DNA of 64,000 bases from a virus: positions 1 through 64,000 of the IMG/VR virus record IMGVR_UViG_3300027759_000079. One strand, written 5' to 3'. Below are positions 4,709 to 46,391 of the stretch, piece by piece. Numbering within the stretch: position 1 is the first letter of the stretch; each line of letters opens with the position of its first letter. The notes under the pieces are model-generated. The model was not told the origin of the DNA. It was given only the letters and a program-made list of their open reading frames with translations, and ran no database searches. The translations under genes and the position numbers were made by a program.

Positions 4709-6580
4709 TTACCTCACGAAGAACGGAGTAAAAGTTTGCGCCTGTTGTTCTGGACAATCCATCATATCAAAATAGACTTTCATCATCCAGTTGCCTAATA
4801 CTAAGCAAGAGTATGAGTCTTTGCGGGTTTTTTCTGCTCCGCTTTGTCTTTTAAGCTCTGGCGGAAGGTCAAAACTCTGGTGACCATTAGCTGTTGTTGT
4901 AGGAATGATTAGAGAACACTGCGCTTTAACCAATTCGATCAAATCAGATTGATGGTCAACGAAATCAACCATCTTTGCGTCGTTCGTTTGATTATCTTCT
5001 TGATCTCGGAAGAATTTAATCGTTTTAATTGGAATGGTCTTGTTTTTTTGAGCTGTGAAATCGTTATCAACAGCTTCAGCAGCGAACAGCATCTTTCTAT
5101 GATCGAAGTTAGATTGCAATAACTCGTTGGCGTAGCGAATCCAAGAGCTTGTTGGCACTCTAAGGTAACAGATACGAGTGTCTTTTAAGTTATACGCTCG
5201 TCTTGCTTTGCGAATCTCGTCTTGGTATTTTTCTGGCGAATCAAAATCAGCTTCAAACATTTTGATTTCAATTTTGCTTTGTTTAAATACTTCGCTTTCG
5301 TTCGCAGCGTTGATAAACTGTACGCCACCGTTATAGTCGCCGCACATTCCAACGATATTGAAGTTGTTCATCAAATAAGCTAAGTATTCGATGTGCTTTT
5401 TAAGATTAGTTCCTGATACAGCATAGTTGTGAACAAGAATTCCTTTACGATTAGCGACATCTAGCTTAATAAGATTAATAGCAAAGTCGTCAGACGATTC
5501 ATTTTCTGCCCACGAAGGATCGAAGCTTAAAATATAATCAGAACCTTTCTGTCCAGCCACTTCAATCGCCTGTCCTTCAAGCGGCTTGATCGTGCATTCG
5601 TGCATCTTGCTCAATTTAAAGTAACCAGAAGAATCATCCATGAATCTAGAACCGAATTCTCTTTGGAACTGCGACTCAGACATTGTTGACTTAGCTTGTG
5701 TCAGCAAACTCTCATCATAAAGACCATGAGGAGCTACATCATAAGAAAAATGCAATATAGCTCTAGTTGAATTACCTTTTCCATCCTTTTCTGGAAACTT
5801 GATAAGCGATTCATATTGCTTGTATAGCTTATACATATACTCAAACTGATAAGACGCAGAAGATAGTACAATAATTTTATTATTTGGCCATCTGAACCGC
5901 TCTTCTTCAGTCATATCTCCTTTAGCTATTAGCTGAGTCTCTAAATCATATACTTCTTTTCTCTCTGTTGGGTTCTGCACTACAGAAAGGAACGGAATAA
6001 TAACTTCGTTGAAGATTCTTTCTGGCATCAACAAGAATTCGTCGATCATCATACGGTGAAAGCGAAAACCACGAAGCTTTTCGCCATCGCCAAGAGGCAA
6101 GCAGGTAATTTTACTGCGACCAAACTCCATTGTCCATTCGTCAGAACTCTTAGACACTTTAGTGATAGCTTGCTTTAAGAAAATAGCATTTGGCTTGTCC
6201 GCGATTTCTTCAATCTTGCGGAAAATCATCTTTGCTTGACGAAATGTTTTACTTACGATGCCAATGTGAACACCTTGATTCAAAATCGCATCTAATGCAG
6301 CGAAAACCGCACAGGTAAAGCTCTTAGAAAGACCACGACTCCATACCATCATGGAATAGTCTGTTTCAAACATCGTTTTAATTGCGAGATGCTGAAACGG
6401 AAACGGCTTTACGCCACAAATAATCTCAGATGAGAATGAAATGTTACTGCGCAGAAATTTATATAGAAGAATCTTAGCTTCGCGCTCTTCTAGATATCCT
6501 TCTTTCTTTAAAATCTCTTCGTTTACTTTATTGCTGTTGTAAACGCTTTTTCTTTTTTGGTCGCCAACGATCCAAGCCAT
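4709..6580 (-). CDS. Terminase large subunit (packaging ATPase/nuclease)
   Basis: 623 residues from the chosen ATG at 6580, which has AAAAGGAT just upstream; the reading frame stays open 14 codons further up but without a site. Walker A variant WSRGLSKS is at residues 80-87 and Walker B MIDE at 178-181. The nuclease half begins with SFDPSW (acidic residue near 354), followed by GMCGDYNGG and a C-terminal KTRKDSY segment. It cuts concatemeric DNA and pumps it through the portal. Its first 58 nt overlap the end of the ERCC4-type nuclease gene upstream, so the two are probably translationally coupled. Confidence 0.9.
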   Translation of the reverse strand: MAWIVGDQKRKSVYNSNKVNEEILKKEGYLEEREAKILLYKFLRSNISFSSEIICGVKPFPFQHLAIKTMFETDYSMMVWSRGLSKSFTCAVFAALDAILNQGVHIGIVSKTFRQAKMIFRKIEEIADKPNAIFLKQAITKVSKSSDEWTMEFGRSKITCLPLGDGEKLRGFRFHRMMIDEFLLMPERIFNEVIIPFLSVVQNPTERKEVYDLETQLIAKGDMTEEERFRWPNNKIIVLSSASYQFEYMYKLYKQYESLIKFPEKDGKGNSTRAILHFSYDVAPHGLYDESLLTQAKSTMSESQFQREFGSRFMDDSSGYFKLSKMHECTIKPLEGQAIEVAGQKGSDYILSFDPSWAENESSDDFAINLIKLDVANRKGILVHNYAVSGTNLKKHIEYLAYLMNNFNIVGMCGDYNGGVQFINAANESEVFKQSKIEIKMFEADFDSPEKYQDEIRKARRAYNLKDTRICYLRVPTSSWIRYANELLQSNFDHRKMLFAAEAVDNDFTAQKNKTIPIKTIKFFRDQEDNQTNDAKMVDFVDHQSDLIELVKAQCSLIIPTTTANGHQSFDLPPELKRQSGAEKTRKDSYSCLVLGNWMMKVYFDMMDCPEQQAQTFTPFFVR

Positions 6581-8560: not shown

Positions 8561-9257
8561 TTAAAATATCCTCCGATTGTAAAATTTTCAAAGCTACTTG
8601 CCTAAACAGCTTCTTAAGATTTTTGATTTGCTTATATCCAGCCTTCTTGCCCTTTTCATTTGTCTTGTAACCCATTTCTGCGGCTACTTTCTCTTCATCA
8701 GCACCATCAACAAAGAGTCTTGTATATACTCTATATTGTTTTGGAGCTAAGTATAATCGCATTTCTTCATGAAGGCGAGATGCACTAGATAAAATGTCAA
8801 AGTTCTGATCGCGCATTGAATGCACAGCATCAACATGGCCTTCAATAGAGACGCAAAGCTTAACATCGTATGCGCTCTTCTTTGTTTTCTCCCATTTCCT
8901 GTATAGTGGGCACTCAGAACACTGTCTTCCGCTTGGTGTTATAGAGCAAGCTGGTGGTTCGTTGCCTTGATTAAACTTACAGCCCAAACATGGGCGAGTA
9001 TAATTGGAATAGTTGTTACGAAGCAAGTTCTTAATCTGATTAGAAGTGATTCTAGCAATCCAAGGTTCAAGTGGACGATCTTGTTTCCACATATGCCACT
9101 TCTTTGAGATGTGAAAACGCACAATCTGTGCGACATCTTCGTAATCCATCCAACAAATAGCTTTGAGCTGCCAGATATATCTGTGCTTCTCAATGATTTT
9201 GTCTATTACATCCTTCTTATCGTCGTAAGTTATTTTACCCAGCTTTTGAGCTTCCAT
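8550..9257 (-). CDS. Phage-type RNA polymerase sigma factor with Cys cluster
   Basis: 235 residues from ATG 9257, the start with least overlap of the upstream gene. Residues about 38-85 (DYEDVAQIVRFHISKKW, PLEPWIARITSNQIKNLLRN) resemble sigma region 2. About residues 95-120 hold CLGC...C...CSECPLY, a likely zinc site. Residues about 170-225 (LAPKQYRVYTRLFVDGADEEKVAAEMGY ... YKQIKNLKKLF) resemble region 4. The layout recalls T4 gp55-like late sigma factors. It would redirect host RNA polymerase to late promoters; the GTGTAA motifs in this window are candidate targets. Neighbouring genes are structural. Confidence 0.65.
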   Translation of the reverse strand: MEAQKLGKITYDDKKDVIDKIIEKHRYIWQLKAICWMDYEDVAQIVRFHISKKWHMWKQDRPLEPWIARITSNQIKNLLRNNYSNYTRPCLGCKFNQGNEPPACSITPSGRQCSECPLYRKWEKTKKSAYDVKLCVSIEGHVDAVHSMRDQNFDILSSASRLHEEMRLYLAPKQYRVYTRLFVDGADEEKVAAEMGYKTNEKGKKAGYKQIKNLKKLFRQVALKILQSEDILSGS

Positions 9258-22888: not shown

Positions 22889-22898
22889 GAAAAAAAAT

Positions 22899-22957
22899 GT
22901 TCCACGACGCCTAAATTGTTCCACGAAAATGTTCCACGACGTGCAAAATGTTCCACA
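22899..22957 (+). repeat. GTTCCACG direct-repeat array C (4 copies)
   Basis: Copies start at 22899, 22918, 22931 and 22950, with steps 19, 13, 19. The last is GTTCCACA and runs straight into the third all-G+C 16-mer. It follows a terminator and precedes the iteron-like region, so no gene is obviously driven by it. Confidence 0.9.
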
Positions 22958-22974: not shown

Positions 22975-23055
22975 AGATGCAAAATCTTTGCGTTAATTTT
23001 ACTATAGCATTATATATACTATACTATAGCTATATCATTATTACATATTATATCA

Positions 23056-23184
23056 TTCACCTTTCATTATTATGTATTATATAGTTCAGCTTTCGTTTTT
23101 TAGTATTAAGAGAAAAGTGATTCACCTTTTAGTATTAAGCAGTAAGTGATTCACCTTTTGTTATTACGAGAGAAGTGATTCACT
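23056..23184 (+). repeat. Iteron-like 29-bp tandem repeats in AT-rich DNA
   Basis: Three near-identical 29-bp units at 23098, 23127 and 23156 each read TTTTnnTATTAnG... and end AGTGATTCACY. Two degenerate units before them place TTCACC/TTCAGC boxes at 23056 and 23085. Box steps are 29, 36, 29 and 29 bp. The DNA before them (22985-23060) is almost all A/T. This is the usual make-up of an origin or a regulator-binding region. Confidence 0.6.
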
Positions 23185-29801: not shown

Positions 29802-29852
29802 AAATTTGTTCTTCCCCTACCTTAGCAGAAGAAAAGCGTTTGTCAATACCTT

Positions 29853-36669: not shown

Positions 36670-37173
36670 TTACTGGTCGAGATTGAACTTTTGCAGCTTA
36701 CCAATCTGCAAATTTAAACAGTCTGCTGGATAGTAATAGAGCTTGTGAGCAGGAGAAGATTCATCCAGTTCTCCTTTTTTACAGTTCAAAGATTGATTTA
36801 AAAATGATTTTTTATTCATGTAACCAAGAATCCAGCCTTTTGAATAGTCTTTAAGAATACTGGTGAATAAGTAGTAATCGCAGTTCTGTAAGGTGTTGAA
36901 CTGATAAACTGTGCAGTTGTAAGAAGGTTTAGGTCTAACTGTGCGTTCTTTGGCTTTGATTTCAAAACGTTTTCCTTTGTTTGATCGCCAATCAGAGTTA
37001 TAGTCTTCGTGAGAGATGATCTCGCCGCCGAGAGCTTCCTGAACCATTAAGTCAGAGATCATGGCGATTTTCCAGCCATCGCCGTCTCGGATGGAGTTTT
37101 TTAATTTTGGCTTATCTTCCGCTAATTCTAATGCGGTGGCGACTAGCTGCGGGTGTAGGTCTATTTCTATCAT
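36670..37173 (-). CDS. Putative PD-(D/E)XK-fold nuclease
   Basis: 167 residues. The block SDWRSNKGKRFEIKAKERT fits the D...ExK part of a PD-(D/E)XK active site, with the acidic residues and Lys in a strand. A helical start and beta-rich end surround it. No specificity domain is seen. It could be a restriction-like or host-DNA-degrading nuclease. Three tandem 31-nt-like repeats lie directly before the ATG. Confidence 0.5.
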   Translation of the reverse strand: MIEIDLHPQLVATALELAEDKPKLKNSIRDGDGWKIAMISDLMVQEALGGEIISHEDYNSDWRSNKGKRFEIKAKERTVRPKPSYNCTVYQFNTLQNCDYYLFTSILKDYSKGWILGYMNKKSFLNQSLNCKKGELDESSPAHKLYYYPADCLNLQIGKLQKFNLDQ

Positions 37174-37279: not shown

Positions 37280-37354
37280 TGGAGCGACAGGTGGGGGTCG
37301 AACCCACGACAGCTTGTTTGGAAAACAAGGACTCTACCACTGAGCTACTATCGC
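37280..37354 (-). tRNA. tRNA-Gly(UCC)
   Basis: Anticodon stem CTTGT/ACAAG with loop TTTCCAA gives TCC. Acceptor GCGATAG pairs with CTGTCGC, discriminator T, CCA encoded. Only 7 nt separates its 5' end from the structured segment that follows. Confidence 0.9.
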
Positions 37355-37361
37355 TAAAATT

Positions 37362-37722
37362 GAATCCCCTACCATGCGCCTAGTAACCTTTCGGTTAACA
37401 CGGATAGAACCCGACATTCAATGCAGGTAGGGAAATTGCACACAGCCATTATTGTCATTGATGTTACTCAAGAGGACTACTGTGTATGTTAAAATAGAAC
37501 ATCCATCCATAGCGTCCTATGGAATCACCTGTTAGTTCAGGCTGAATACGTTTCGTAGCGTTATGATAGGCATTAATAGTCAGGGACTACTAAGAATTAT
37601 GCGTCAATAACACCGTGCTCGATAGAGGCATTTCGGATGAAGTTGGTTCCTCCTGCTGTATAAGTCCACCGAGAATTCTCAGCAGTTTAATGCACTTATA
37701 CACGCTATATTTATTATAGCGG
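37362..37722 (-). ncRNA. Candidate structured non-coding RNA next to tRNA-Gly
   Basis: No gene fits in 37355-37796. It holds many hairpins: CCCTACC (37368) with GGTAGGG (37425) closing a domain with TAACC-TTTC-GGTTA inside; ACACAG (37440) with CTGTGT (37480); CCATA-GCGTCC-TATGG (about 37507); CCTG-TTAGTT-CAGG (about 37528); GTATAAGT (37658) with ACTTATAC (37694); GCTATA (37704) with TATAGC (37715). The strand is assumed minus because the tRNA and genes around it are minus. No family was assigned. Confidence 0.5.
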
Positions 37723-37796
37723 ATGCAACACACAGAAAGGAAGATGGGAAAGAACAAAAAAGAACCTGCTTATTTTACATTAAATGTCAAGTGTTT

Positions 37797-38177
37797 CTAA
37801 TCTGTTTCTTGAAATTGTTTCCTCCATTCATCATACTTAATCTTAGCGGCGTCAATAGCTGGTCGAATACCTTTTGCGCCGTTACTAAACTCAATCCATT
37901 CATAGCAACCGCGATTCTCTTTCTCTACGCTAATTCCAATTTGAAATGGAAGATTGAAATATGTTTCATCAGTATCATCAGGATGATCTTCAACGGTATA
38001 ATAAGGTACGGAGCTTATACTTGTGCCTCCATTTTGAAGAAATCTTTCTAACCAATTTAGGCGACTTTCTGCTTTATCTAAATTTTCAAACGCTTGCTTG
38101 AGTTGCTTTTCAAGCATAATCATTTTTTCTTGGTTGTTCATAAAGATGCTATCCTTGCAGTTTTGTTTAGGTTTCAT
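37797..38177 (-). CDS. Unknown protein
   Basis: 126 residues. The ATG at 38177 overlaps the previous stop as ATGA; an alternative Met at 38141 has AAGGA upstream. A coiled coil (EKMIMLEKQLKQAFENLDKAESRLNWLERF) precedes a strand-rich part (YFNLPFQIGISVEKENRGCYEW) and a helical end. Similar to generic phage proteins; function unknown. Confidence 0.55.
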   Translation of the reverse strand: MKPKQNCKDSIFMNNQEKMIMLEKQLKQAFENLDKAESRLNWLERFLQNGGTSISSVPYYTVEDHPDDTDETYFNLPFQIGISVEKENRGCYEWIEFSNGAKGIRPAIDAAKIKYDEWRKQFQETD

Positions 38178-41193: not shown

Positions 41194-43242
41194 TTACTTG
41201 CTGGTTGCGTGATAAACACCGTCCCAATCTTTGGGTAAGTTTGTGGTTTTGAGTTCGGAGATTCTGCTTTCCAGCATCTCGTAATACTCAATCATCTTTA
41301 GATTTTCTGCTTTGAGTCTAGTCAGGTAGATCATTGCTTCGTCCCAGTTCATCGCGTAATAGAAATCCATCATCTTCTTGTGATGAGAAACAATCTTATT
41401 TGCCTTCTCATCGTTCGTGATTACGGTATAAATCTTAATCCCTTCCTTCTTCCCTTTGACCGCGATGTTGTCTAACTCTAAGAAATTAAAAGAGTTTTCG
41501 ATGCCTTTCACGGTTTGTTCGCCAATGACGATTCCAACGTGATAAGGTTTGCTTTGACCTTCCAAGCGAGATGAGAGATTGACTGCATCTCCAAGGCAAG
41601 TATAGTCAAAACGATTTTCTGAACCCATGTTTCCAACTACAACGGAGCCAGAATTGACGCCAACGCCAATGGAAAGTTGCGGTAATTTTTCCAACGCGAG
41701 TTGTTTATTTAGCTCATCGAGCTTGACGAACATCTCAACAGCGCACTCAATAGCTAATTCTTTGTGGCGCGCTACATCAACAGGCGCGTTCCAGAAAGCC
41801 ATAACTGCATCGCCAATTAGTTTATCAACAGTTCCATCTTTACTCATAACGAGCTTGAGCATAGGAGTCATGTAACGGTTAATCAAAGAAGTTAATCCTT
41901 GAGGATCAGTCTTGAAATGCTCGCTAAGTGCAGTAAAACCGCGAACGTCAGAGAAAAGGATTGTCAAGTTTTTCGTTTCGCCGCCAAGTTTTAATAGTTC
42001 TGGATTAGTTTGGAGCTTTTTGACCATTGCAGGAGCAAGATAGTGTTCAAACTGCTTTCTGATTTGCTGCTTCTGTTTAAACTCGTTGATGAAGCGCATG
42101 AACGCAGACACAGAGAAGCAGATGAAAAGGCTAAAGACTATCCAACTATAATCAAAAAGTAGTCCATTGCCAAAGGCTTTGGCGCCATAAATGACTGGCG
42201 CAACCATCAAACCGATGGATAATCCAGCGCAAACTAAGTAATTCAACCAAATGAACGCGACTATAACTAACAATGCAGCAAGAGTGCCATACAGAACCTC
42301 GTATAAATTGAATTCAGACGGTCTTTCGAGTCTTGAGTCATCTAGCAGCATTTGAGCGGCAAATAGCGGTATTTCGTAACCATTCTTGATATTAACCGAT
42401 GTTGCGACAGTGTTGGAAAGACCTTCTGCTGTTGGCGCAATCATCACGATCTTGCCTTTAACTGCTGACCAATCTTCTTTCGTGAATGAAAAAGACTCAA
42501 AGGTGTATTTGAAATTCAACCAAACTCGCCCATTCTCGTCAGTTTTAATTGTTTTAAATTTAGGAATACGAACGGCAGATACGCCAGCTTGATTAACTTT
42601 TGCTTGGTAACTTGGGTCATTTGAAGCTACGCGCAAAATTTCTAATGGCAGTGTTGGGTAAAACTCTTTGTTCACTTGAACGATCAGCGGTAATCTTCTT
42701 ACTACGCCATCAACTTCGGGCGCAGTTAAGAGCATACCAACGCCAGCAGCAGCTTCGCCAAGTTCTTTTGTCGGCCCAATCGCCGCAGAGTAATCAAATA
42801 GCCAATCATTGATGCCACTGCCAACAACTGCTACGCCTCTTGGCACAGGTGAGCCTTTTCCTTTATTTGCCGCAGATTGACTAATGATTACAGGATACTT
42901 GCCGAAAGTTTCTTTTAGTGCGGCGTCTCCATTGAATCGGTCACTCTCAGCAAAAATAATCGGCAATACGACAATCTCTGCTCCGTTATCAAATGCCTTT
43001 GTTATTGCGTCGGCTAAGATTTGTCTTGGAAAAGGCCATTGACCATGCTTCTCAAGAGTTTTCTCATCTATCTCTACTACAACAACACTTTCACTTTGGA
43101 CTTTCTCTTGAGTGATCTGATAGTAATCTAATGCTTTTAATCTCGCCGTCTCAATGAAGAATGGGTCTTGAACTCTTAAAGTTACTAGACAAATTAAAAC
43201 TAACAGTGATGCGATTGCTGTATAGATTCTATATTTCTTCAT
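41194..43242 (-). CDS. CHASE2-transmembrane class III adenylate cyclase
   Basis: 682 residues. A hydrophobic start (IASLLVLICLVTL) leads to a CHASE2-type sensor (about residues 30-300; VVVVEIDEKTLEKHGQWPFPRQIL is typical), three hydrophobic segments (about 313-390), then a class III cyclase domain (about 420-610). Catalytic residues appear complete: Asp432 (SDVRGFT) and Asp478 (IGDAV) for metal, Lys474 with Thr548 for adenine, Asn555 and Arg559 for the transition state. Thr instead of Asp fits class IIIb. It would make cAMP in the cytoplasm in response to a periplasmic signal. Last gene of the csgF-like operon; overlaps the FecR gene by 4 nt. Confidence 0.9.
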   Translation of the reverse strand: MKKYRIYTAIASLLVLICLVTLRVQDPFFIETARLKALDYYQITQEKVQSESVVVVEIDEKTLEKHGQWPFPRQILADAITKAFDNGAEIVVLPIIFAESDRFNGDAALKETFGKYPVIISQSAANKGKGSPVPRGVAVVGSGINDWLFDYSAAIGPTKELGEAAAGVGMLLTAPEVDGVVRRLPLIVQVNKEFYPTLPLEILRVASNDPSYQAKVNQAGVSAVRIPKFKTIKTDENGRVWLNFKYTFESFSFTKEDWSAVKGKIVMIAPTAEGLSNTVATSVNIKNGYEIPLFAAQMLLDDSRLERPSEFNLYEVLYGTLAALLVIVAFIWLNYLVCAGLSIGLMVAPVIYGAKAFGNGLLFDYSWIVFSLFICFSVSAFMRFINEFKQKQQIRKQFEHYLAPAMVKKLQTNPELLKLGGETKNLTILFSDVRGFTALSEHFKTDPQGLTSLINRYMTPMLKLVMSKDGTVDKLIGDAVMAFWNAPVDVARHKELAIECAVEMFVKLDELNKQLALEKLPQLSIGVGVNSGSVVVGNMGSENRFDYTCLGDAVNLSSRLEGQSKPYHVGIVIGEQTVKGIENSFNFLELDNIAVKGKKEGIKIYTVITNDEKANKIVSHHKKMMDFYYAMNWDEAMIYLTRLKAENLKMIEYYEMLESRISELKTTNLPKDWDGVYHATSK

Positions 43243-44426
43243 CTCTGAGTAATGTAAACTTTACTTTTTTCACCGTAGTTTAAAACGTAAGCTTGACCAT
43301 TAACAGTAACGGTAGAGTTAGCGTCGTATTTGGTGGTAAATTTGATTACACCTTTATCAGTAGATAGAGACAATGAAGCGTATTTTCCGTCAGTAGTAAA
43401 TCCGTTGTTAACAGTAGCTGTTGCTGATATTATATTATTTGTCTGAATTGGATTCGTGATTGAAGGCACTTCAACTTTAGGAGCTTCTTGAACTGTGGCA
43501 AAATTTGCAACAGTTGCAGGAACTTCAACTTTTGGAGCTTCAACTGTTGGAGCTTCTATTTTAGCGTCCAGTTTTATTTGAACAACCTCCGCTACTTGTT
43601 TAGGCGGAGGCGGAGCATCTGTTGTTGTGCTTGCGGCTTCTGTTACCGATTCAGAAGCAGTTTGTTGTGCTACTTGAGTTTTAGTATCTACAGTTTTCTT
43701 ATTTGATTTATCGTCTTTCTTGTCTTCGGCTTTATCTTTTTCAGACGAAACTTTTTTTATCTCTTTACTATTCTTAGTGATAGATTTATTACTCTCTACC
43801 AGAAGATTATTATTGATCTTAGATTCATCATTCAAATCTAGAATAACTGGTGCTGTTGGATTAGAGAAGGCAGAGGAGATAAACGTTGCTTGGTAAGCCT
43901 GATTCAAGACAACTGTACCACTAGAGTTGGTAACTTCAATCGAACCTACAACTGGCGGCAAACCAGTTAACGATGGAAGAGACGGCAAAAGAACAATTAA
44001 ACTTTTACCGTCTTCTCCTACGCTCATCGAGAAATCAGTTCCTCTAACTGATACAACAGCAGTTGGAGTTTTGATTTTTATATTTTCTCTACTATTCTTT
44101 GCTATTAGCCCAGAAGTATATCTCACTGTTCCCGATGCAGCTTTGATCGACAAAGAACCTTTGCCGCTAGATGGATCATAAACAAACTCGTCGATTTTTA
44201 ATTTAGAGAACTCTGTAATCTGGACTCTTGTATCGTCTTCAAAAGTAATGCCAACGCGAGATTGAAGTGTTTCGATAGTATCAAACATCTCAACCCCAAC
44301 GTTAGCTTTACCATCAATCTTGCTCTTATCTCTGGTAATTTGAGTTGGGCCAGTAGCCTCTACTATTTTACCAGATGAACCAAAAAGAGATAAAGCCGTT
44401 AATAAAAATATAACGGCAAATCTCAT
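43239..44426 (-). CDS. Secreted FecR-domain protein
   Basis: 395 residues with a signal peptide (FAVIFLLTALSLFGSSG). Residues about 25-200 form a FecR domain: GVEMFDTIETLQSRVGITFEDDTRVQI, ASGTVRYTSG and TPTAVVSVRGTDFSMSVG. A Lys-rich segment, a Thr/Ala/Pro-rich linker (KVEVPATVANFATVQEAPKVEVPS) and a C-terminal beta part (DKGVIKFTTKYDANSTVTVNGQAY) follow. FecR proteins pass periplasmic signals or bind ligands. In bacteria FecR genes often sit next to CHASE2 cyclases. It overlaps the curlin-like gene by 1 nt and the cyclase by 4 nt. Confidence 0.85.
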   Translation of the reverse strand: MRFAVIFLLTALSLFGSSGKIVEATGPTQITRDKSKIDGKANVGVEMFDTIETLQSRVGITFEDDTRVQITEFSKLKIDEFVYDPSSGKGSLSIKAASGTVRYTSGLIAKNSRENIKIKTPTAVVSVRGTDFSMSVGEDGKSLIVLLPSLPSLTGLPPVVGSIEVTNSSGTVVLNQAYQATFISSAFSNPTAPVILDLNDESKINNNLLVESNKSITKNSKEIKKVSSEKDKAEDKKDDKSNKKTVDTKTQVAQQTASESVTEAASTTTDAPPPPKQVAEVVQIKLDAKIEAPTVEAPKVEVPATVANFATVQEAPKVEVPSITNPIQTNNIISATATVNNGFTTDGKYASLSLSTDKGVIKFTTKYDANSTVTVNGQAYVLNYGEKSKVYITQR

Positions 44427-45142
44427 TAAGGAATCGGAGGTAAACTAGCAGCAGTTGTGCTTTGCTGAATGGTAACTGTATTGAAGCTGCCAGTCAAATT
44501 GTAGTTCAAAGTTTGCTTTTCTGAACCTGCTTGCTGGAAGTTCATTGTGTTTGAGCTTCCTAAAACAGTTACAACTTGACTATGACCACTGCCAGCAGCG
44601 TTGCCGCCCGGATTACCTGCCTGAGTTGTAGTTAATGTGTTGCTGGAACCAGTGATGAGATAATCTAATTTGTTATATTTACCATCATCAATTCCAACTT
44701 TCATTACGTTACTATTACCAGTAACAGCGAATTTAACATCGCCATTAACAGTGGTCGCTTTGTCGGTGCTGTTACCGATAGCGTCTTTGTTGAGCAAGAA
44801 TGTATTTGAGTTGCCAGTGAAAGTAAGATCAATATTGTTATTTGCTCCATTTGTGAACATCTTTAGGTTATTACTATTACCAGTAGTAATAGATTTAAGG
44901 GTCAAGTTGTTACCGATCATGGAGAAGTTAGCATCGTTATTGTCTCCAACTTGTCTCATCTCAAAAGTGAGATTGTCGGATGTTATTTCGCTGGGCGTGC
45001 CAGACGAACCAATTTTATTAACGCTACCAGTTTGAACAATAGTTGTTGTACCAGTAGTGGTGATTTGATTAATGTAGATTTGATTCTGCCCAAAGCAAAG
45101 GGCTGATAAAAATACATACAGGGCTAATAGTTTGATTTTCAT
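44426..45142 (-). CDS. Secreted curlin-like repeat protein
   Basis: 238 residues. A signal peptide (LLALYVFLSALCFGQ) precedes about nine degenerate repeats built on G.(S/N)N: QVGDNNDANF, TGNSNNLKM, TGNSNTFLL, TGNSNVMKV, TGSSNTLTT, LGSSNTMNF, TGSFNTVTI, with Gln at several QxG positions (MRQVG, TTQAG, FQQAG). This is the amyloid-repeat style of curlins (CsgA/CsgB), though more diverged. Its csgG and csgF neighbours support export as a fibre subunit. The start overlaps csgG as ATGA. A beta-solenoid surface protein is the alternative. Confidence 0.7.
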   Translation of the reverse strand: MKIKLLALYVFLSALCFGQNQIYINQITTTGTTTIVQTGSVNKIGSSGTPSEITSDNLTFEMRQVGDNNDANFSMIGNNLTLKSITTGNSNNLKMFTNGANNNIDLTFTGNSNTFLLNKDAIGNSTDKATTVNGDVKFAVTGNSNVMKVGIDDGKYNKLDYLITGSSNTLTTTQAGNPGGNAAGSGHSQVVTVLGSSNTMNFQQAGSEKQTLNYNLTGSFNTVTIQQSTTAASLPPIP

Positions 45143-45933
45143 TGTTTTTGAGGGGTTTTATATTTCCAGAATCTCGATTTCTCTCCTTGATCTACTATCT
45201 CTATTACTGCTTGTTCAATAGCACTTCTAACAGCTATTGTATTTGGTTCGTTGGCAGTTAATCCAAGTTCAGCTTCCACAGGAGTTACGCCGTGTTCGTA
45301 GAACTTGAATAGGTTGCCTGAAACCGCGACACTAGAAATTGTTTTAGTTACAGCTACGCTAAGTAGTATCTCACCTGTTTGTACGCTAACGAAACGAAGT
45401 GATACTGTAACAACGTCTTTGCGATATTGAGCACTAGATGATATGCCAAGAACGCTTGCGCCAGCGCCACCAGTAATTATGTTGGTGTCGTAGCCGATGA
45501 TACCACCTTCTGCAATGATGCCAGCAAACAGCATAGGAGAGAGCTTTTCAGCGTCTCTGCCTTGAAAGGTTTCTCTCGTTTGGTTGATTAGCTGCCGTTC
45601 TCTAATGATATTGTCTAAACTGGTGCGTTCTAACACCTGAAACCATTGACCGCTGCCAGCAACGCGCAAAGCGTCTATAAGCCAGCTTTCCGCGCCTTGT
45701 GTGACTGCGGACGAAAAAGAGGCGTAGGAATCTACAGTTTTGCGTTGACCAGTCTTATCGACGAAGGAATAGACGGCAATGCTAATTCTAGGACTCTCTG
45801 GAGGCGGTAAATTACGCAACTGCTGCTCCAAAGGTGGAGCTTGCAGTTTAGGCTTCTCTAATATAGCAGGTTTTTGCGGAAAAGATGAGCAACCTACTAG
45901 GAAAAGAAGTAAGAATGGAGTTAACCATCTCAT
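45139..45933 (-). CDS. csgG: CsgG-like outer-membrane secretion lipoprotein
   Basis: 264 residues, close to the 277 of E. coli CsgG. Lipoprotein signal with LVGC (lipid on Cys15). ISIAVYSFVDKTGQRKTVDSYASFSSAVTQGAESWLIDAL, QWFQVLERTSLDNIIRERQLI, and the two long strand-rich parts (GIIGYDTNIITGGAGASVLGISSS, DVVTVSLRFVSVQTGEIL) match CsgG, which forms a nonameric pore in the outer membrane. It should export the curlin-like product of the next gene. 2 nt from csgF and 4-nt overlap with the curlin-like gene. Confidence 0.92.
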   Translation of the reverse strand: MRWLTPFLLLFLVGCSSFPQKPAILEKPKLQAPPLEQQLRNLPPPESPRISIAVYSFVDKTGQRKTVDSYASFSSAVTQGAESWLIDALRVAGSGQWFQVLERTSLDNIIRERQLINQTRETFQGRDAEKLSPMLFAGIIAEGGIIGYDTNIITGGAGASVLGISSSAQYRKDVVTVSLRFVSVQTGEILLSVAVTKTISSVAVSGNLFKFYEHGVTPVEAELGLTANEPNTIAVRSAIEQAVIEIVDQGEKSRFWKYKTPQKQ

Positions 45934-45935
45934 CC

Positions 45936-46391
45936 TTATCCACCTCCTGGTTTGAGGACTCCAACAGGAAGCTGAATTTGTGTAGAGCTACCTGTTGCGG
46001 GGTCGTTGATATATAGCGTTACTAAATCGCCATTCTTCTGCCAAGTGACGGTTGCGCCACCTTGTAAATTAATAATGCCAAATGTTTCGCCGCTTGAATT
46101 GAAAATTTGATCTGTAACTTGAGAAGCAAGCTGAGAATAAATTCTTGCCTGTAAGTTATTTATGAAAGTATTAAGCGGAGTATTTGTAGCTTGAATCTTT
46201 TGTTGTTCAAGATCAGCTTTTAAGTTATCCTTAACAGCTTGTTTACGAGTTCTCGCTAAATTCTCTACTGTGAGAGCGTGTCCAGAGTAGTTAACTCCAT
46301 TAAAAAATGGAGACTTGAAGGCATGAACCATCTCGCTTCCATGCGAGCTGGAAATAAAAATAAATAAAATTAGAAAAAATGCCTTCTTCAC
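45936..46391 (-). CDS. csgF: CsgF-like curli assembly protein
   Basis: 151 residues, GTG start at 46391 (this is the start that follows the GTGTAA motif). Signal peptide (FFLILFIFISSSHG). The mature start MVHAFKSPFFNGVNYSGHALTVENLARTR resembles the CsgF N-terminus that plugs into the CsgG pore; the rest includes TPLNTFINNLQARIYSQLASQV and a strand-rich end (ETFGIINLQGGATVTWQKNGDLVTLYINDPATGSSTQIQLPVG), the usual CsgF order. It would couple fibre nucleation to the CsgG channel. First gene of the five-gene operon. Confidence 0.85.
   Translation of the reverse strand: MKKAFFLILFIFISSSHGSEMVHAFKSPFFNGVNYSGHALTVENLARTRKQAVKDNLKADLEQQKIQATNTPLNTFINNLQARIYSQLASQVTDQIFNSSGETFGIINLQGGATVTWQKNGDLVTLYINDPATGSSTQIQLPVGVLKPGGG

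Follow-up and report, generated by a model that had tools for sequence, protein, structure and literature searches.

Bacteriophage T4 makes two small stable RNAs, species 1 and 2, annotated as rnaC and rnaD, which lie directly after tRNA-Arg (rnaD ends in ACCA, followed by AATT) and are released by host processing from the tRNA transcript; to our knowledge, these stable RNAs beside tRNAs are still without known function. Two other phage RNAs, GOLLD and ROOL, are defined by assembly into homo-oligomeric nanocages. Both lie near tRNA islands, and many RNAs of the GOLLD class are longer than 800 nt (PMC12286853). Theta (HDV-like) ribozymes also occur in phage tRNA regions (PMC10879173), and such regions counter tRNA-cutting defences (PMC11555353). 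Here we analysed a stretch of 64,000 nt (the window), taken from a virus record of 68,849 bases, in which a 442-nt gap (37355-37796) separates a tRNA-Gly(TCC) gene from a 126-aa ORF, and we conclude that the structured segment within this gap is not one RNA but four separately folding RNAs, termed beads A (96 nt), B (146 nt), C (53 nt) and D (75 nt) (Table 1). The T4 species 1 and 2 RNAs, small and stable products of a tRNA operon, are the closest known kind, and the locus shares with them a non-tRNA structured RNA inside such an operon; T4 has two of these RNAs, whereas the arrays considered here hold many families shuffled between phages. Judged against Rfam 15 and open-access papers, two of the four beads are predicted RNA families that were previously uncatalogued, and what appears to be new beyond the T4 precedent is the predicted existence of many exchangeable families of phage tRNA-operon stable RNAs.

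Table 1. Features of the gap and its borders.
Feature	Position in window	Strand	Description
126-aa ORF	37797-38177	-	Other border of the gap
Candidate promoter	37763-37790	-	TTGACA (37790-37785), 16-nt spacer, CAGGTT; TAGGTT or TAGATT in relatives
Bead A	37644-37739	-	7-bp closing stem CTTTCTG/CAGGAGG; hairpin GCTAT/ATAGC; long hairpin TGTATAAGT..ACTTATACA
Bead B	37496-37641	-	Closing stem CATCC/GGATG; at least 4 inner stems
Bead C	37438-37490	-	Stem TACACAG/CTGTGTG; inner hairpin TTGA(T)/(A)TCAA; conserved internal-loop letters
Bead D	37361-37435	-	Closing stem CCCTACCTGCAT/GCGCATGGTAGGG; P2 CGG/CCG; P3 TAACC-GAAA-GGTTA
tRNA-Gly (TCC)	37280-37354	-	ARAGORN; Rfam tRNA, 63.9 bits; downstream of the beads in the same array

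An earlier note on this DNA had described a structured non-coding segment of about 360 nt that begins 7 nt from the tRNA in a gap of 440 bp. We recovered the spacing and, to within 2 nt, the gap size, and found two of its stems where it had placed them (8 bp, GTATAAGT/ACTTATAC; 7 bp and closing, CCCTACC/GGTAGGG); the stems are RNA-like and tied to phage tRNA genes, as it had proposed, whereas the single RNA of about 360 nt does not survive the comparison of relatives, in which the beads are separate. The RNA strand, absent from that note, was assigned by folding: the segment reached a z-score of -3.1 on the minus strand, where 1 of 100 shuffles was as good, against -0.8 on the plus strand, which is not outstanding and identifies minus as the RNA strand. 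This strand is common to the beads, tRNA-Gly and both neighbouring genes. When the beads were folded singly on the minus strand, A, B and D gave z-scores of -3.5, -3.2 and -2.4, respectively, and C only -0.7. Every bead has its own closing stem, the units having been delimited by aligning relatives, and the four lie between the candidate promoter and tRNA-Gly with T-rich linkers between them, as between phage tRNA genes. The segment and bead D are each present in one copy in the window.

The linkers and the promoter stretch were compared with those of related arrays. In most gaps of eight arrays TTT occurs within four letters after the tRNA CCA, the next four letters being mostly TTTT, ATTT, CTTT or TTTA, and beads A and D end in CCA or TTCA ahead of a linker of this kind (AACCA and then ACTT for A, TTCA and then ATTT for D). 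The promoter stretch is near-identical among relatives and its TTGACA is invariant, but the call is tentative because a general sigma-70 scan did not list it. Together, the tRNA-like linkers, the bead ends and the candidate promoter suggest one transcript cut by tRNA-processing enzymes. Elsewhere in the window, a TTGACA-16-TAAGGT arrangement ahead of tRNA-Leu (29841-29846, minus strand) has a layout like that before bead A.

Using the 167-aa protein encoded beside the tRNA (36670-37173) as query, we retrieved 24 viral contigs (92-99% identity for 17) and compared 15 of them across the gap. Most match the gap over its full length, L012 keeps bead D and the tRNA alone (D-tGly), L013-L015 and L017 have different sequence in the middle of the gap, and in L013-L017 bead B is replaced by the unrelated bead E; among the viral contigs scanned, bead B occurs only in the window's close relatives. 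Beads A, C and D, traced in other phages by scanning viral contigs with short conserved pieces, recur in T4-type phages, in arrays that comprise as many as 29 tRNAs and numerous other beads of unknown kind. Bead A is found in the tRNA arrays of L030, L034, L043, L052, L053 and L055-L059, and bead C in related arrays mostly directly before tRNA-Asp; a genome scan with the bead C core also returned L061 and L062, chance matches inside coding sequence. L060 was likewise a chance match, and all three were discarded. The window order A-B-C-D-tGly gives way to A-F-E-C-tGly in L013, A-E-C-D-tTrp in L015 and I-G-J-A-E-C-tAsp in L030, while L026 has bead C alone, with tPro on one side and tAsp on the other, and L053 has D before tThr at the array head and A-E-C about 2 kb later. 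From one relative to another, individual beads appear, vanish, move or give way to others, and their order contradicts a single large RNA. A GOLLD- or ROOL-related ornate RNA of about 360-440 nt would suit the adjoining tRNA, the many stems and the location of GOLLD and ROOL near tRNA islands (PMC12286853), but its parts occur apart and in other orders, no Rfam match appears even at E up to 10 and many GOLLD members are longer than 800 nt (PMC12286853), and we regard it as extremely improbable.

Beads A-D and their relatives matched no Rfam 15 model, and permissive thresholds returned nothing but tRNA, tmRNA, chance matches and, elsewhere, an HDV-like candidate; searches of the window and relatives with E limits of 10 and 2 found no match to the GOLLD model, nor to the ROOL model. 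The earlier note could not match the segment, and the Rfam 15 covariance-model search agrees, recognising tRNA-Gly alone in the gap and flank. Of the two identities that the note had offered, a new class is supported by this result and by covariation, whereas kinship with GOLLD or ROOL found no support: the likeness is that of structured phage RNAs by tRNA islands (PMC12286853), and GOLLD and ROOL are one very large RNA each, whereas the beads are small separate units without an Rfam match. Models of the HDV family did not match beads A-D, nor A, F, E and C of L013. The likeness to theta ribozymes is one of structured phage RNAs next to tRNA genes, with a candidate in the related array L046. 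Sequence comparison of rnaC and rnaD with the beads gave chance matches only, and neither matched the bead D model. A DNA search of cultured phages with the whole gap, one array and bead D in three versions yielded, among the matches listed, tRNA-Asp or chance matches only, and thus pointed to no cultured carrier whose host is known.

The earlier note had staked its claim on conserved covariation among homologous phages, which is present in beads A and D. In bead A, all 29 of 29 pairs are kept in 12 sequences and 10 show double-sided changes, giving a covariation score of 0.421, where shuffles gave 0.250 and sliding no more than 0.149; its GCTAT/ATAGC hairpin carries about 75-90 extra nt in relatives (an extra domain in L002 and L007-L009). 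Bead D scored 0.556 against 0.188 in 13 sequences and 0.609 against 0.194 in shuffles for 15 model-aligned sequences, in which 15 of 17 varying pairs are doubly changed and P2 is invariant, the 13-sequence figure being the fairer because the larger alignment was fitted to the structure. Bead D is a new, well-supported motif with covariation, in which a closing stem and a hairpin accompany the invariant core GUCGGGUUC..UCCG.G ... CUAG. The window copy has the closing stem, P2, P3, the core (GTCGGGTTC..TCCGTG and CTAG in the DNA) and the covarying pairs, and matches the covariance model at 37367-37432 with 79.8 bits. In L092 and L096 nearly all letters of the closing stem and P3 are replaced while GUCGGGUUCAUCCGUG and CUAG are kept; core invariance is partly built in, since the seeds were found by a core pattern, which is not so for the stems. 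The match in L101 is weaker (31.5 bits), with CCGGG for CCGUG within the core and a longer loop, and was left out of the model. Pattern matches in L095, L100, L102, L110 and L112 had weak scores, the last three varying at third codon positions, and were rejected. For bead C, whose sequence is nearly constant across relatives with one double change, the predicted pairing is likely real; for bead B, which varies too little for covariation, pairing is predicted from folding energy.

Covariation also bears on whether the beads are decayed tRNA genes. Such decay might explain the odd tRNA-like units in the arrays, with T-arm letters and insertions, and the GGGTTC..TCC of bead D, which resembles a shortened T-arm, but the pairing register of bead D does not fit a T-arm, the stem layouts of A, C and D differ from that of tRNA, and compensatory changes preserve the pairing of A and D. 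Moreover, tRNA models gave no match on A, C or D and, in the segment and flank, matched only the known tRNA-Gly, and we consider decay very improbable.

Relatives of bead D are present in L031, L049, L053, L082-L094, L096 and L101, including at least three further phage contexts that are apparently unrelated. In L031, L053, L083 and L085-L087 bead D opens the array, ahead of tRNA-Thr; it lies exactly between tRNA-Met and tRNA-Thr in L101, an otherwise unmatched phage, and has no recognised tRNA nearby in L049, L082, L092 and L096, which fits a general stable RNA and not a strictly tRNA-related task. The position at the array head, together with a copy upstream of the terminase gene in L092, another in L082 that precedes an ORF by about 20 nt and an HDV-like ribozyme candidate in the same kind of array (L046, 5801-5864), would agree with beads that act in cis on their own transcript, D for example as a put- or antiterminator-like element that allows polymerase to traverse long untranslated tRNA arrays, or the beads as ribozymes or processing sites through which the adjacent tRNA is released. 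We think this unlikely, given that D is the last bead and not the first in the window and in L014, that it sits between two tRNAs in L101, that the gene behind it varies and that each bead has a closing stem of its own. REP-like mobile palindromic repeats, which would be selfish hairpins spreading in tRNA regions with no RNA function, would account for the movement of beads as units, their strongly palindromic character and a GIY-YIG-like ORF within one array (L043, 4655-5557; recognised by eye, with no Pfam confirmation), but they would not be expected to replace stems around invariant unpaired core letters, to be single-copy in the window (segment and bead D) or to be oriented in arrays as the tRNAs are, which makes them a distinctly improbable explanation.

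We instead favour the interpretation that the beads are probably passengers of a tRNA operon, whose minus-strand transcript would be processed into stable, predicted trans-acting RNAs. A tRNA-type RNA operon on the minus strand would run from the candidate promoter through A-B-C-D to tRNA-Gly, and host tRNA-processing enzymes would cut the long transcript in the T-rich linkers to release the small stable bead RNAs. Unpaired letters that stay invariant while the stems around them are exchanged suggest a core for binding or catalysis, through which the beads might, we suggest with less confidence, act in trans, each binding a host or phage factor; with similar caution, they may be retained, lost and swapped in the way of tRNA genes because only some hosts make them useful. 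The strand asymmetry of folding, the bead-wise turnover, covariation in A and D, the placement of D between tRNAs, the linkers and the T4 precedent argue for this operon, whereas bead D copies without a tRNA, a promoter outside the standard scan and the near-constancy of beads B and C, which leaves little or no covariation, weigh against it. As a first and tentative guess at their role, the beads could interfere with tRNA-directed host functions, including tRNA-cutting defences, because phage tRNA regions are known to counter such defences (PMC11555353). The anti-defence phage tRNAs that serve as model for this role are, like the beads, non-coding RNAs of tRNA-rich regions, but they are true tRNAs that replace cut ones, whereas beads A-D are not tRNAs.

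In these phages, predicted T4-like stable RNAs form recurring families, and the mosaic is a reason to treat phage 'tRNA arrays' as arrays of mixed RNAs. Because bead D has a covariance model, RNAs of its type can be found, classified and tested, and its invariant core in several apparently unrelated phages makes it a concrete target for biochemistry. More speculatively, tRNA super-arrays might constitute a shared pool of a dozen or more new RNA families with tRNA-like processing, exchanged across tail types, in which D would be a ligand- or protein-binding or catalytic fold that extends beyond arrays and some members would serve anti-defence.

The array records of 140 kb and 73 kb carry T4-type baseplate genes and the window carries lambda-like tail genes, and a gene block common to both (window 41194-46391, best pieces 74-77% identical) makes contact between the two lineages plain; the window terminase was not found in 19 array-phage records, many of which are fragments. 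A protein with CHASE2 and adenylate/guanylate cyclase domains (window 41194-43242, minus strand) is about 55% identical in array phages and about 40% in Methylophilales phage Melnitz and Pelagibacter phage HTVC008M. In eight arrays, about half of the spacers are long enough for other genes, and rough clustering of spacers gave 14 non-tRNA families, a count that is indicative only because the clustering merges and splits beads. Beads E, F, G, I, J, K and L are more uncatalogued structured units in the arrays, F having a conserved core around a variable arm, and bead H (L043, 6821-7164, plus strand, and relatives) is about 344 nt long with a tRNA-like opening (GTTGAGGAGGTTGGCCTAGAGG).

A 300-aa ORF whose start looks GIY-YIG-like by eye (IYKITN..KIYVG) occupies a tRNA-array spacer of L043 (4655-5557, plus strand) and is absent from the corresponding spacer of L042; a Pfam search returned nothing significant for it. 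One possibility is a homing endonuclease that contributes to the spread of array pieces, as segB of T4 lies in the T4 tRNA cluster. The array of L030 contains a complete tmRNA gene (8583-8953, minus strand) with the tag GINKALSNFFGFAEEMPLAA. The HDV-like (theta-type) ribozyme candidate of L046 (plus strand; core ACCUCCUCGUGGU..GGGACAA) scored 31.3 bits against the HDV-F-prausnitzii model, whose gathering threshold is 44, and lies just upstream of the tRNA array, the first tRNA of which is at 6237; a weaker HDV-like candidate lies between tRNA-Val and tRNA-Ala in L026 (10223-10297, minus strand). In the window itself, 32-bp repeats (22894-22956) and AT-rich 29-bp tandem repeats (23035-23183, about 2.6 and 3 copies) lie downstream of tRNA-Arg/tRNA-Asp.
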